A stretch of DNA of 32,757 bases from NCBI GenBank assembly GCA_009784425.1, contig WRBR01000010.1, forward strand, positions 1 through 32,757. The letters run 5' to 3'. Position numbers and translations under genes: made by a program. Under the pieces are notes generated by a model. The model was not told the origin of the DNA. It saw nothing but the letters and a program-made list of their open reading frames with translations, and did not search any database. Below, in pieces: positions 20,646 through 29,728 of this stretch. Position 1 is the stretch's first letter, and every line of letters starts with the position of its first letter. This DNA comes from Coriobacteriia bacterium (GTDB taxonomy: Bacteria > Actinomycetota > Coriobacteriia > Coriobacteriales > UBA8131).

Positions 20646-23489
20646 ATGAGCGAGCGAGTCATTGCGGTTATTGACGGCAATTCATTAATGCATCGAGCCT
20701 TCCATGCGGTGCAACACCCCATGAATGCACCGGATGGGCGTCCCACCAATGCCTGCTTTGGGTTTATTGCCATGCTGCTCAAACTCGTGGGCGACTTTAA
20801 GCCCTCGGGGGTCATCGCCGCCTTTGACGCGGGCATTCCGGCCTCTCGCTTTGAGGCAATTCAGGAGTACAAGGCACAGCGGCCGCCAACCGATCCTGAG
20901 CTCAAGGCGCAGTTTCCGATGATCGAAGAGCTGCTCAAGTCGCTCAATATCCCGGTTGTGCGGGTGCAGGACTTTGAGGGAGACGACATCCTCGGCACGC
21001 TCTCTCTCATGGCTGAGGAGCAGGGCAACATCAAGACCCTCCTGATTACCGGTGACAAGGACGCCCTGCAGCTTGCCTCGGACAAAACCGTCATCGTCAC
21101 CAATCGAACCGGTATGAGCGAGGTCACGATTTATGATCCCGCCGGGGTCTATGAGCGCTTTGGCGTGGAGCCCGTGCAGGTGCCGGATTTTCTGGGGCTG
21201 ATGGGCGACAGCTCGGATAACATCCCCGGTATCCCCGGCGTGGGGCCTAAAACCGCCACCAAGCTTTTGCAGGATTACGGAAGTCTCGAGAACGTCCTTG
21301 CGCATGCAGGTGACCTCAAGGGCAAGCTGGCCGAGAAGGTGGCCGAGGGAGCCCAGAAAGCTCTTGACTCAAGACAGGTGGCCACGATTATCCGCGATGT
21401 GCCCCTCACTATAGATTTTGATACCGTTGAGTTCCCCAACTTTGACAGCACCGAGGTCAAGCGCGCCTTTGGGGAGCTGGGCATGATGAGCCAACTGCGC
21501 AAGCTGCTGAGATTGACAGGGAAGAATGCTGATGACATTCCCGCGCCCACCATCTCAAGACCACCTTTGGTAGTTGTGCAGGGAGAAAGTGGTACAGGGG
21601 GGACGGGGTTTGGTGTACCACTTTCCATAGAAAGTGGTACACCAAACCCCGTCCCCCCTGTACCACCAAACCCCGTCCCTCCTGTACCACTTTCTCCGTT
21701 CCCGGTGACACACTCTTTAGAGAAACTAGGCGAATCAGAACAACTGGGGCTCTATCTCAATGCCTCAGACGCCAACGCCTCGGCAAAAACCAAGAGCGCG
21801 CAGCAAAGTCTGCTGCTGGATGATGTTGAGGAGCAAGAAAAGGCCCTCTATATTGCTACAGAAAATAGCACAATAGTGGTTTCAGGCGAAGAAGTGCCTG
21901 GGGCTCTCAAGTCGCTACTGCTGAGTAAGCACAGCCTGGCGTGTTACAACCTCAAGGGACTACTGGCCTTACTCGCGCCACCTGACACCAGCGAAGATGC
22001 TCTCCTGACCAGCGCGGAACTTCTGAACTGCAAAGCCTTTGACCTGAGTGTGGCCAGCTATTTGCTTGATTCGGACAGACCCATGAACGATCCGGCAGCC
22101 TTTGTTGAGCGGTTCTTTCCCGAGGTTGACCTCGAAAAGCTCCAGCAAGAAGAGGCAGAGAGCAAGGATAAAGGCTCGCGCTACGCAGCCACGCTTGCCG
22201 CCGCCGCGAGGGCAATTGCCCCTCACCTCAAAGATGAATTGACAGCCACTGAGGCGCTCAATTGCTACGAGCAGATTGAGCAGCCACTCACCTCCGTGCT
22301 CGTGCAGATGGAGCGCAGCGGGGTGCTGGTAGACACCAAGGTCCTTGCTGAGCAGGGCAAGACCCTCACAGCACGCATCGAGGAACTACAAAAACAAGCG
22401 CTCGAGATGGCCGGCACAGAATTCAACCTTGATTCTCCCAAGCAGGTAGGGGAGATACTGTTTGAAAAACTGCAGCTGCCCACGGGCAAAAAAACCAAGA
22501 GCGGCTACTCCACTGATGCGAGCGTGCTTGCAGATCTTAAGTCGCACTCTCCACTACCGGGCATCATTTTAGATTACCGTGAGCTGGCAAAGCTCCGCTC
22601 AACTTACATAGAGGCACTGCCCAGGCTGGTTGCAGAAGACGGCCTCATCCACACCAGCTTCAATCAAACGGTAACCGCAACAGGAAGGCTCTCGTCTTCT
22701 GACCCCAACCTCCAAAACATTCCCGTGCGCACCGACATTGGCAAGCACATACGCACGGCCTTTGTGGCTGACCCCCAAGCCTTGGGCGTGGAGCAGGCAG
22801 TTTTTGTCTCTGCCGATTATTCGCAGATTGAACTGAGGCTTTTAGCGCACCTCTCCGGTGATGAGCACCTCATCGCCGCCTTTGTTCACGGCGAGGATTT
22901 TCACCGAGAAACAGCCGCTCGCGTCTTTGGGATTAAGTCTGAAGATGTAACGCCGCAGATGCGCGGCAGAGCCAAGGCAGTGAACTTTGGCATTGTGTAT
23001 GGGCAGCAGGCCTTTGGGCTCGCACAAAGTTTGGGAATCGGCTTTGCAGAGGCAGGCCAGATGATTAAGCGCTACTTTGAGGCCTATCCTCAAGTGCACG
23101 AGTACCTCGAGAGCCTCAAGGCACAGGCACATACCCAGGGCTGGGTTGAGACGATTTTTGGCCGCCGCCGCCAGATTCGCGAGATAGCCTCGAGAATCCC
23201 CGCCCGCCGCAATTTTGCCGAGCGCACTGCCATGAATCACCCCATGCAGGGCTCCGCTGCTGACATCGTCAAGCTGGCCATGAACCGCATTGCCCTCAAA
23301 CTGGAAGAAGAGGGCTACCGCTCCAAGATGGTGCTACAGGTACACGACGAGCTAGACTTCAACTGCGACACAAGCGAGCTGGAGAAACTCTCATCTATGG
23401 TTACCGCCACCATGCAAGACGTTGTGACCCTCAAGGTTCCCTTGATGGTTGAGGTTTCCAGCGGCCCCAATTGGGCCGAAGCCCACTGA
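20646..23489 (+). CDS. polA: DNA polymerase I, with a repeat-encoded linker insert
   Basis: A 947-residue family A polymerase. The 5'-nuclease domain occupies about residues 1-300 (IDGNSLMHRAFHAV, GVIAAFDAG, LLITGDKDALQL, GLMGDSSDNIPGIPGVGPKTA). A proline-rich insert follows at about 313-350 (NPVPPVPPNPVPPVP), encoded by a REP-like palindrome. The 3'-exonuclease-like domain (about 380-560) lacks the catalytic acidic residues, so proofreading is probably lost. The polymerase domain follows, with TGRLSSSDPNLQNIPVRT, SADYSQIELRLLAHLS, RGRAKAVNFGIVYG and MVLQVHDELDF. Roles are Okazaki fragment maturation and repair synthesis. Its TGA stop is the first part of another repeat (TGACTCACTGGGGACGGGG). 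Confidence 0.97.
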   Translation: MSERVIAVIDGNSLMHRAFHAVQHPMNAPDGRPTNACFGFIAMLLKLVGDFKPSGVIAAFDAGIPASRFEAIQEYKAQRPPTDPELKAQFPMIEELLKSLNIPVVRVQDFEGDDILGTLSLMAEEQGNIKTLLITGDKDALQLASDKTVIVTNRTGMSEVTIYDPAGVYERFGVEPVQVPDFLGLMGDSSDNIPGIPGVGPKTATKLLQDYGSLENVLAHAGDLKGKLAEKVAEGAQKALDSRQVATIIRDVPLTIDFDTVEFPNFDSTEVKRAFGELGMMSQLRKLLRLTGKNADDIPAPTISRPPLVVVQGESGTGGTGFGVPLSIESGTPNPVPPVPPNPVPPVPLSPFPVTHSLEKLGESEQLGLYLNASDANASAKTKSAQQSLLLDDVEEQEKALYIATENSTIVVSGEEVPGALKSLLLSKHSLACYNLKGLLALLAPPDTSEDALLTSAELLNCKAFDLSVASYLLDSDRPMNDPAAFVERFFPEVDLEKLQQEEAESKDKGSRYAATLAAAARAIAPHLKDELTATEALNCYEQIEQPLTSVLVQMERSGVLVDTKVLAEQGKTLTARIEELQKQALEMAGTEFNLDSPKQVGEILFEKLQLPTGKKTKSGYSTDASVLADLKSHSPLPGIILDYRELAKLRSTYIEALPRLVAEDGLIHTSFNQTVTATGRLSSSDPNLQNIPVRTDIGKHIRTAFVADPQALGVEQAVFVSADYSQIELRLLAHLSGDEHLIAAFVHGEDFHRETAARVFGIKSEDVTPQMRGRAKAVNFGIVYGQQAFGLAQSLGIGFAEAGQMIKRYFEAYPQVHEYLESLKAQAHTQGWVETIFGRRRQIREIASRIPARRNFAERTAMNHPMQGSAADIVKLAMNRIALKLEEEGYRSKMVLQVHDELDFNCDTSELEKLSSMVTATMQDVVTLKVPLMVEVSSGPNWAEAH
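21585..21695. repeat. REP-like inverted pair inserted in frame in polA
   Basis: A perfect 36-bp inverted repeat (21589-21624 and 21631-21666) with a six-base loop, plus a third partial copy of the right arm at 21665-21694. Each arm is itself a palindromic unit: GAAAGTGGTAC (21585-21595) and GTACCACTTTC (21615-21625) flank a G-rich core containing GGGACGGGG. The element is 111 bp, 37 codons, and the frame stays open through it. It is the same family as the elements at 23490-23670 and 29593-29728. Confidence 0.92.
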
Positions 23490-23670
23490 CTCACTGGGGA
23501 CGGGGCTGGTGTCCCAGATTGGAACAGGGGGACGGGGTTAGTGTTCCAATTTGACCTTGGTCAAATTGGAACACTAACCCCGTCCCCCTGTTCCAATCCC
23601 AAACAGCTGAGCCTGCCGAGTGAGTCAGTTTCCCCGTCCCCAGTGAGTCAGCCCCGTCCCTCTGTCCCAG
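23490..23670. repeat. REP-like repeat cluster between polA and pheS
   Basis: The centre is a perfect 40-bp inverted repeat (23517-23556 and 23559-23598) with a two-base loop. Each arm is a unit with stem ATTGGAAC/GTTCCAAT around AGGGGGACGGGGTTAGT. It is flanked on the left by TGACTCACTGGGGACGGGGC with GTGTCCCAG, starting at the polA stop codon, and on the right by two inverted copies of that outer unit (about 23621-23670). The whole polA-pheS gap up to about 23670 is therefore repeat DNA. Confidence 0.92.
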
Positions 23671-23742
23671 TGGTATACTGCTACACGGTGTTTCCTAAGG
23701 GAAGCCCCGTTTGTTTTATGTGTAAGCTGAAAGGTAATAGAC

Positions 23743-28449: not shown

Positions 28450-29589
28450 GTGGCTGACCAGTGGACAATCTTAGAAGCGCTTAATTGGATTGAGCAGCGC
28501 CTGACTCGCGAAGGCGAAGAGAATCCGCGGCTGGCGGCACAAATGCTCGCCGGACACGCCACCGGCCTTTCTCGCATAGAGCTCTACACCAGCTTTGACA
28601 AACCCCTCGACGAGGATGAACGAGCCGTTCTCAGAGAGTCCATTCAACGCAGACTCACAGGCGAGCCCCTGCAATACATCATAGGCAGCGTTGGCTTCCG
28701 ACACATCGAGCTGAAAGTACGCCCTCCCGTACTCATCCCCCGCCCAGAAACCGAACAGTTAGTTGAGTGCGTTTTGGGACAGAGGGACGAGGCTGTGGAA
28801 CAGGGGGTCAGGGCTGGCTCAGGATCTGGCGCAGCGGAGGCGTGCACAAAAAACACGCTTTTTTGTGCAGAAATTGCGTTTGTGCGTGATTTTAAGGCCA
28901 AAAAAGACCAAATTGGGCATGAGAAAGACAAAAAAGGGGATATTTCAGGTCATTTTGGGGCTAAAAGACACCCGGAGCCACGCACAAACGCAATTTCTGC
29001 ACATTATTTAGAGAATTCCTGCACAACGCTCTCTCGCAATCCCGAATACTTCCTCGACATTGGCACCGGCACGGGTGCGATTGCACTTTCGCTGCTTGCA
29101 GAGCTGCCCAACTGCCATGTCTATGCAACCGACATCGACGAGGCAGCAATTGCCCTCGCAAACGAAAACGCGAGAGAGCTTAAGCTCGATGAAGACGGTC
29201 GCTTGCATATACGCAAGGATGACCTGGCCAGCTCGTTTGTTGCCGATGAAGCCTATCATGGCTACTTCGACCTAGTGCTATCCAACCCGCCCTACATTCC
29301 TACCGCCGAGTATGAACAACTGCCCATAGAGATCCTGCAGTATGAAAGCAAACTGGCGCTCGATGGCGGCACCGACGGGCTTGATGTCTTCAGACGCATC
29401 GCCAAGCAAGCAGAAGTCCTACTCAAACCTGGCGGTATCCTCGCTGTTGAACTCCACGAGAATTCACTCGAAGAAGCCGCAGCCTATACGCAAGAACTGT
29501 CATACTCCCAAGTACAGATTCACAAGGACCTAACAGAGCGCAACCGCTTCCTCACCGCAATAAAAACCTCAAGGAGGAGAGAAGAGTGA
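28450..29589 (+). CDS. prmC: release factor glutamine methyltransferase PrmC with a large repeat-derived insertion
   Basis: This 379-residue protein is about 90 residues longer than typical PrmC. The N-terminal helical RF-binding domain (about 1-105, ending LIPRPETEQLVE) and the SAM-dependent Rossmann domain (from about 198, DIGTGTGAIALSLL, with VLSNPPYIP near 275) are both intact. Between them, residues about 108-195 have no counterpart in the family and coincide with REP remnants and a nested inverted-repeat element. The normal product methylates the glutamine of the GGQ motif in RF1/RF2. GTG at 28450, one base after prfA, is the start; the frame open further upstream lies inside prfA. Activity with the insert is untested, but the frame has been kept. 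Confidence 0.93.
   Translation: MADQWTILEALNWIEQRLTREGEENPRLAAQMLAGHATGLSRIELYTSFDKPLDEDERAVLRESIQRRLTGEPLQYIIGSVGFRHIELKVRPPVLIPRPETEQLVECVLGQRDEAVEQGVRAGSGSGAAEACTKNTLFCAEIAFVRDFKAKKDQIGHEKDKKGDISGHFGAKRHPEPRTNAISAHYLENSCTTLSRNPEYFLDIGTGTGAIALSLLAELPNCHVYATDIDEAAIALANENARELKLDEDGRLHIRKDDLASSFVADEAYHGYFDLVLSNPPYIPTAEYEQLPIEILQYESKLALDGGTDGLDVFRRIAKQAEVLLKPGGILAVELHENSLEEAAAYTQELSYSQVQIHKDLTERNRFLTAIKTSRRREE
28775..29003. repeat. composite repeat insertion inside prmC
   Basis: Three parts are visible. First, 28775-28795 matches the complement of 23649-23669 (outer unit of the polA-pheS repeats) in 20 of 21 positions, and 28796-28813 matches the TGGAAC-type unit in 16 of 18. Second, TGCACAAAAAA (28843-28853) and TTTTTTGTGCA (28859-28869) form an 11-bp hairpin. 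Third, a perfect 25-bp inverted repeat (28864-28888 and 28979-29003) encloses a 90-bp spacer, as in a MITE. All of it is translated in frame as part of PrmC. Confidence 0.88.
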
Positions 29590-29592
29590 AGA

Positions 29593-29728
29593 GTGGTACA
29601 GGAGGGACGGGGTTAGTGTACCAATTTGGCCCAAGTGGTACAGGAGGGACGGGGTTAGTGTACCAATTTGGCACTTGGGCCAAATTGGTACACTAACCCC
29701 GTCCCTCCTGTACCACCTCCTGTACCAC
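29593..29728. repeat. REP-like triple repeat between prmC and tsaC
   Basis: Two identical direct units (29593-29629 and 29635-29671, stem GTGGTAC/GTACCA around AGGAGGGACGGGGTTAGT) are followed by an inverted one. The right arm 29672-29716 is a perfect 45-bp complement of 29593-29637, and 29680-29716 also pairs perfectly with 29635-29671. A further CTCCTGTACCAC fragment follows (29717-29728). The cluster begins four bases after the prmC stop codon and ends 16 bases before tsaC. Confidence 0.93.

Follow-up and report, generated by a model that had tools for sequence, protein, structure and literature searches.

The window, the whole 32,757-nt stretch of DNA analyzed here, is contig 10 of a metagenome-assembled genome (146 contigs, 2.0 Mb, 86% complete). 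Among public genomes, the named relatives with the nearest polA are Coriobacteriia/Coriobacteriales MAGs, whose isolate names suggest a termite-gut habitat. The polA gene (DNA polymerase I, 947 amino acids; positions 20646 to 23489, forward strand) was recognized from its ORF and its Pfam DNA_pol_A and 5'-3' exonuclease domains, and it is followed on the same strand by pheS (phenylalanyl-tRNA synthetase alpha, Pfam PF01409; 23743 to 24801). No Rfam family reached the gathering threshold in a scan of the whole window. We observed that the gap between the two genes is filled by layered inverted repeats. The inner one has 40-nt arms at 23517 to 23556 and 23559 to 23598, which are 100% complementary and enclose a 2-nt loop, TT. 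It lies inside an outer pair of 20-nt arms, also 100% complementary, at 23486 to 23505 and 23632 to 23651 (126 nt apart), and there are further partial inverted pairs. Both features that an earlier note on this DNA had described, the perfect 40-bp inverted repeat with a two-base loop and its nesting within REP-type pairs, are therefore present.

The layers are built from units that share a common design: a short stem, a GGGGACGGGG-type loop, and the complementary stem. We named the unit types in the present analysis by their stems: a, TGGAACA; b, TGGGACA; c, TGGTACA; d, GTGACTCAC; and e, TTGACAA. The outer layer is not a simple single pair but a mosaic of a d unit and a b unit. Its left arm (23486 to 23505, forward strand), the perfect inverted match to 23632 to 23651, is the 5' part of a d unit (CTGACTCACTGGGGACGGGG). 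The polA stop codon, TGA at 23487 to 23489, is the TGA of this unit and also forms the first bases of TGACTCACTGGGG. At the common GGGGACGGGG, the d half is joined to the 3' half of a b unit (CTGGTGTCCCA; 23506 to 23516, forward strand), recognized by its sequence and by other b units; here, d and b units were apparently cut and then fused. The inner element is an a-type REPIN-like palindrome of 76 bp (37 + 2 + 37 nt, loop TT; 23520 to 23595), with its boundary set from 50 copies. In the window copy, the consecutive flank match ends after 3 bases, and the outer layers pair out of register. To the right lie a complete d unit (CTGACTCACTGGGGACGGGGAAACTGACTCACTCGG; 23616 to 23651, reverse strand), identified by sequence, by its inverted match, and by comparison with un-nested d palindromes, and the 5' part of a b unit (TGGGACAGAGGGACGGGGCTG; 23649 to 23669, reverse strand).

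Three measurements confirmed that the repeats in the gap are real and beyond chance. The 221-nt region folds as RNA at -144.2 kcal/mol, whereas shuffled sequences average -76.6 (z, -14.3), and the window has 11 occurrences of GGGGACGGGG (at most 1 mismatch) where 1.37 would be expected. In the genome as a whole, the half-unit GGGGACGGGGYTRGTGTYCCA (at most 2 mismatches) has 215 + 193 = 408 matches, and a reversed control has 0. Single units fold weakly (z, -1.0 to -3.6). The a unit has 133 + 120 = 253 matches in its own genome, and the center of the a palindrome has 64. When 32 other genomes of the family were searched for the a unit, one gave a single match (3 mismatches) and 31 gave none; shorter core matches to the unit occur within the same genus. 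Among the genomes searched, the a layer is private to the window's species.

The layers also differ in divergence. Among 125 a units, 95 are exact and the mean divergence is 0.017 per site, compared with 0.099 for b (n = 23), 0.085 for c (n = 38), and 0.075 for d (n = 40); each unit was placed in the class it matched best, and some hits counted as c differ from a by one base. By divergence, the a units are young, a species-specific burst spread across the genome. The repeat layers can be dated relative to one another. With hundreds of units in 2 Mb, they represent a REPIN-type population of very high density in a genome of uncultured gut Coriobacteriia.

Other arrays were found in the window. 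One, of c units (21582 to 21697, forward strand), is in frame within polA, in the linker that joins the 5' nuclease part to the polymerase part. It adds about 38 Pro/Gly-rich residues (amino acids 313 to 351) that were not seen in ten aligned relatives, some of which have other insertions. Another, of triple c units (29593 to 29716), begins 3 nt past the prmC stop codon (29587 to 29589). The prmC ORF itself contains, in frame and between its N-terminal and methyltransferase domains, a perfect inverted pair of 25 nt (TGTGCAGAAATTGCGTTTGTGCGTG; 28864 to 29003); the arm recurs at two other loci of our set (L127 and L238), which makes a further dispersed family probable.

Comparison with relatives revealed an empty junction. 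In a genome of the same genus (G001), polA ends with GPNWAEAH and TGA, GGTATACTG follows, and pheS begins about 50 bp past the stop. In the window, 182 bases (23490 to 23671) separate the polA TGA from GGTATACTG (23672 to 23680, forward strand), which is retained in the window, in G001, and in the closest named relative (L029). The empty site is defined to the exact base by one relative, G001, which is 76% identical over the end of polA. L029 (72% over polA) has a longer polA-pheS gap with a b-like remnant similar to that at 23649 to 23669; because of this remnant, the b unit is possibly older than the split between the window and L029. A third relative, L030, has a different gap without such units, and all three retain the polA-pheS adjacency. 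Upstream of pheS, the insertion left TGGTATACT (23670 to 23679) where G001 and L029 have AGGTATACT. We take TGGTATACT to resemble an extended -10 promoter. It is possible that GGTATACTG is the pheS -10 element; a sigma-70 consensus promoter scan found none there or in the array.

The earlier note had also proposed that the element took over the end of polA. This was correct insofar as the terminal TGA of the unit is the polA stop codon. However, the protein end is unchanged relative to other species: the window polA ends with NWAEAH and a stop, and W-A-x-A-H closes the protein in 10 of 10 aligned relatives, with and without repeats. Therefore, the polA end is native, and since the edge of the d unit coincides with the native TGA, the polA protein is unchanged. 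The note had named a shared C-terminus together with shared transcript ends in repeat-free relatives as evidence against its proposal; for the C-terminus, this is what we found (e.g., G001, which has TGA without the repeat). A new polA end made by the element, whether shorter or longer, was ruled out by the C-terminal alignment. At L176 (of G016) and L034, another GGGGAC-type array (TTGACAAAGGGGACGGTCCCTTTTGTCAA) lies 3 bases past the polA stop codon of a Coriobacteriia relative, apparently an independent colonization of the polA 3' site.

We then considered how the units spread. A search with PF01797 gave matches in 14 of 30 genomes, including one in the window's own genome (Y1_Tnp; E value, 6.7e-13). 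In this RAYT protein, Pfam reports Y1_Tnp alone at E ≤ 0.1; an HTH-like end was read by eye, a C-terminal helix-turn-helix domain being a mark of TnpA-REP subclass 2.1. Eleven RAYT loci were inspected, 8 of them with flanks displayed (L195 to L197 are the other three); loci L192, L193, L194, L199, and L200 were left out of the analysis. By eye, inverted stem-loop units of like design with a GGGG(A/C/T)-type loop are present in all 8, the weakest at L022. The RAYT gene of the window's genome has TTGACAA-stem (e) units on both sides rather than a, b, or d units, the downstream side being cut by a contig end, and one RAYT locus of a relative (L017, in G004) has b-like units near the gene. Since units of this shared architecture stand on either side of RAYT genes in the window's genome and in related ones, the spread of the repeats is best explained as driven by RAYT. 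No RAYT gene flanked by a or d units was found among the 11 loci inspected, so mobilization by a cognate enzyme is what we infer; the cognate RAYT may be missing because the genome is 86% complete. At another locus (L020, in G002), the RAYT ORF appears to start within its own upstream repeats, the units of which encode the first residues.

We consider it probable that the gap is a stack of REP-like units, probably nonautonomous and once moved by RAYT (Y1/HUH) transposases, and that an a palindrome landed in a b/d layer lying after the polA stop codon. In this sequence of events, two units placed head to head would have formed a REPIN-like palindrome. An older b-type unit and a d-type unit would have come to lie directly past the polA stop, with the d edge coinciding with the native TGA so that the polA protein was kept. 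The species-specific a-type palindrome would then have inserted within the b and d layers, giving nested pairs. Both the RAYT movement and this order of insertion are inferred. The array would be near neutral for the host, tolerated since it starts where the gene ends.

Nesting is not peculiar to this locus. Of the 50 a copies, 12 were dropped because their flanks were cut off at contig ends. For the remaining 38, whose flanks are complete, the two flanks of the same locus formed inverted repeats beyond all 5,000 shuffles at every length tried. At least 19 consecutive flank bases match in 11 of the 38, some of them near contig ends, where the symmetry may be artificial. The genome also contains simple palindromes, of c, d, and further types, that have no a element at their center. 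By eye, no target-site duplications were seen in the flanks of a palindromes. Our literature search found no report of nested REPs, and the word "nested" is absent from the available text of PMC3733652 and PMC3116915.

It is possible, although we favor insertion, that the nesting arose mainly from hairpin-templated DNA copying, in which template switching lengthened or mended the arms. Hairpins made and kept by template switching have been described (in the available part of PMC8794818), and the arms of the a palindrome are well matched: among 47 full copies in the fetched stretches (5 more, cut by contig ends, are outside this count), 34 have the consensus in both arms, 9 have the same variant in both arms, and 4 have arms that differ. 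However, some of the matched-arm variants are common to several copies and may be subfamilies. In the 50 copies viewed, the inner layer is one and the same defined element of 76 bp, with varying outer layers around it, and copying alone does not carry an element to unrelated loci. Insertion at hairpin tips and hairpin-templated copying are both possible.

We asked where the d units lie relative to genes. The d edge TGACTCACTGGGGACGGGG (at most 2 mismatches) has 48 matches in the genome. From 47 distinct sites in the fetched stretches, 3 with another unit less than 70 nt upstream were dropped, leaving 44. The first triplet of the d edge is the in-frame stop codon of a neighboring ORF (at least 120 codons) in 17 of these 44 (13 TGA, 3 TAA, and 1 TAG). 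At 25 d edges, such an ORF ends within 60 nt, and in 17 of the 25 the offset is zero (binomial P = 4e-25 versus a uniform spread). Two further d edges begin on the base following the 3' end of a tRNA, tRNA-Ser (L225) and tRNA-Thr (L232). In addition, a d-type palindrome at L228 lies between two convergent genes, with both ORF stop codons in its two edges.

To compare these gene ends with those of homologues, we used 19 genes, including two with degenerate d edges (L127 and L142); 12 of the 19 could be set beside relatives. In 8 of the 12 (polA, L123, L133, L142, L144, L236, L243, and L246), the position of the last codon is shared with one or more relatives. The ends differ from relatives by 1 to 6 residues in the other 4 (L127, L149, L157, and the minus-strand gene at L228), and the L157 gene is 6 amino acids shorter than both of its relatives. 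Thus, apart from the L157 gene, the homologue comparison mostly rejects the idea that all d-edge stops were supplied by the element and changed the protein. TGA accounts for 13 of 17 stops at the d edges of this genome versus 6 of 27 stops in relatives (11 genes, with polA left out) and 4 of 23 array-adjacent ends without a shared d stop (Fisher P = 3e-4 versus d edges). The gene ends at d edges are therefore mostly native, yet their triplet tends to TGA. Insertion after the stop triplet with later matching to the TCA of the unit would do this, as would take-over by the TGA of the unit.

A more specific proposal is that stop codons as such are where the d family inserts or becomes fixed: the transposition machinery would cleave or target the trinucleotide, which would pair with the TCA of the unit's 3' stem, and the a family would home into the tips of hairpins already present. 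We regard this as speculative and somewhat unlikely. If it were true, a stop-codon-targeted element would have a built-in address for harmless sites, leaving proteins unaltered and producing Russian-doll palindromes. The match of d edges to native stop codons and tRNA 3' ends poses a testable question, how repeats find harmless sites.

The placement of the arrays also bears on whether the gap is an RNA element selected by the host, in which the hairpin protects the polA 3' end or stops transcription, or in which cutting by RNase III separates polA from pheS. We consider such a role doubtful. By mechanical ORF calls, 24 of 47 arrays lie between co-directional genes, 8 between convergent genes, and 2 between divergent genes; 7 are inside ORFs, and 6 could not be assigned. 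The arrays cluster past stop codons, as an RNA element might: the median of 45 distances from array to gene 3' end is 8 nt, with 29 within 20 nt, versus a median of 82 nt and 3 within 20 nt for 29 distances to gene 5' ends. The fold is very stable (-144 kcal/mol; z, -14.3). RNase III is encoded in the genome, so the perfect 40-bp duplex, if transcribed, would be a plausible substrate and might be cut. However, the array is without a U-tract; a search for intrinsic terminators (a GC-rich hairpin plus a U-tract) found none in it and one weak site downstream, at 23690 to 23705. The same-genus junction in G001 is without the array altogether. The a unit is missing from nearly all relatives searched and is widely dispersed in its own genome, and 7 of 47 arrays lie inside ORFs. 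On present evidence, the gap structure is a mobile repeat tolerated at the end of a gene, not a gene-specific regulator.

Two other explanations fared worse. It is very unlikely that the units belong to the CGTC-tagged REP family, which is without a dedicated transposase, instead of being linked to RAYT. The complement CCCCGTCCCC does contain CGTC, but here the motif sits in the loop between short stems, while CGTC REPs, as described in the available part of PMC3733652, have it as a terminal tag on a stem of 8 to 9 bp with a loop of 4 to 5 nt; we rejected membership on this basis. An assembly artefact, with palindromes misfolded or misjoined in metagenome assembly, is even less credible. Twelve of the 50 copies do have flanks cut off at contig ends, where their perfect symmetry may not be genuine, but the copy in the window lies in the interior of its contig, its outer layers are asymmetric, and the polA-pheS adjacency is the same in G001, L029, and L030.

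We compared the repeats with known systems as these are described in the available portions of the cited papers. For GTAG REPs and BIMEs, PMC3733652 describes location 3' of genes, stop codons supplied by REP ends, and REPs inside repair genes, including that for DNA polymerase I. The present units are likewise extragenic and 3' of genes, with ends that can supply or share a stop codon and some copies inside DNA-repair genes. They differ in having no GTAG head, and the TGA of the d unit is the main stop supplied or shared here. Membership among GTAG REPs was rejected because the consensus units of types a, b, c, and d have neither GTAG nor GTGG at the hairpin foot.

The a palindrome resembles the REPINs of Pseudomonas fluorescens (PMC3116915), in which two inverted units and a spacer form a dispersed hairpin with paired changes in the arms; here too, an inverted REP-type doublet is dispersed as one hairpin (76 bp, 64 center matches). 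Unlike those REPINs, it is a perfect palindrome with a 2-nt loop and no GTAG tag, and it is nested in other unit types. The RAYT loci resemble TIRYT/TIRtron elements, in which RAYT-like genes carry terminal inverted repeats of the GGGGWSAS type (Di Nocera 2013, PMC3733652), and the TnpA-REP subclass 2.1; for the latter, the available text of PMC6006769 reports that no REP-like sequences were found near the genes. In these systems as here, a Y1 transposase gene lies between GGGG(A)C inverted repeats, as we saw by eye in the 8 loci with displayed flanks, and copies are dispersed as dimers and clusters. Unlike in TIRYT, the units here are stem-loops with the motif in the loop, with hundreds of matches and perfect palindromes. 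Their motif is GGGGACGG, which fits 7 of the 8 positions of GGGGWSAS, the seventh base being G and not A, so the full motif was not found in the units of this genome; in one relative (L018), the unit motif is GGGGACAG. The GGGGAC inverted repeats that accompany RAYT genes are poorly understood, and these observations link them to a stem-loop unit that spreads alone as well. The repeats are thus of a known kind, REPIN/RAYT, in which nesting and stop-codon anchoring are unusually clear.
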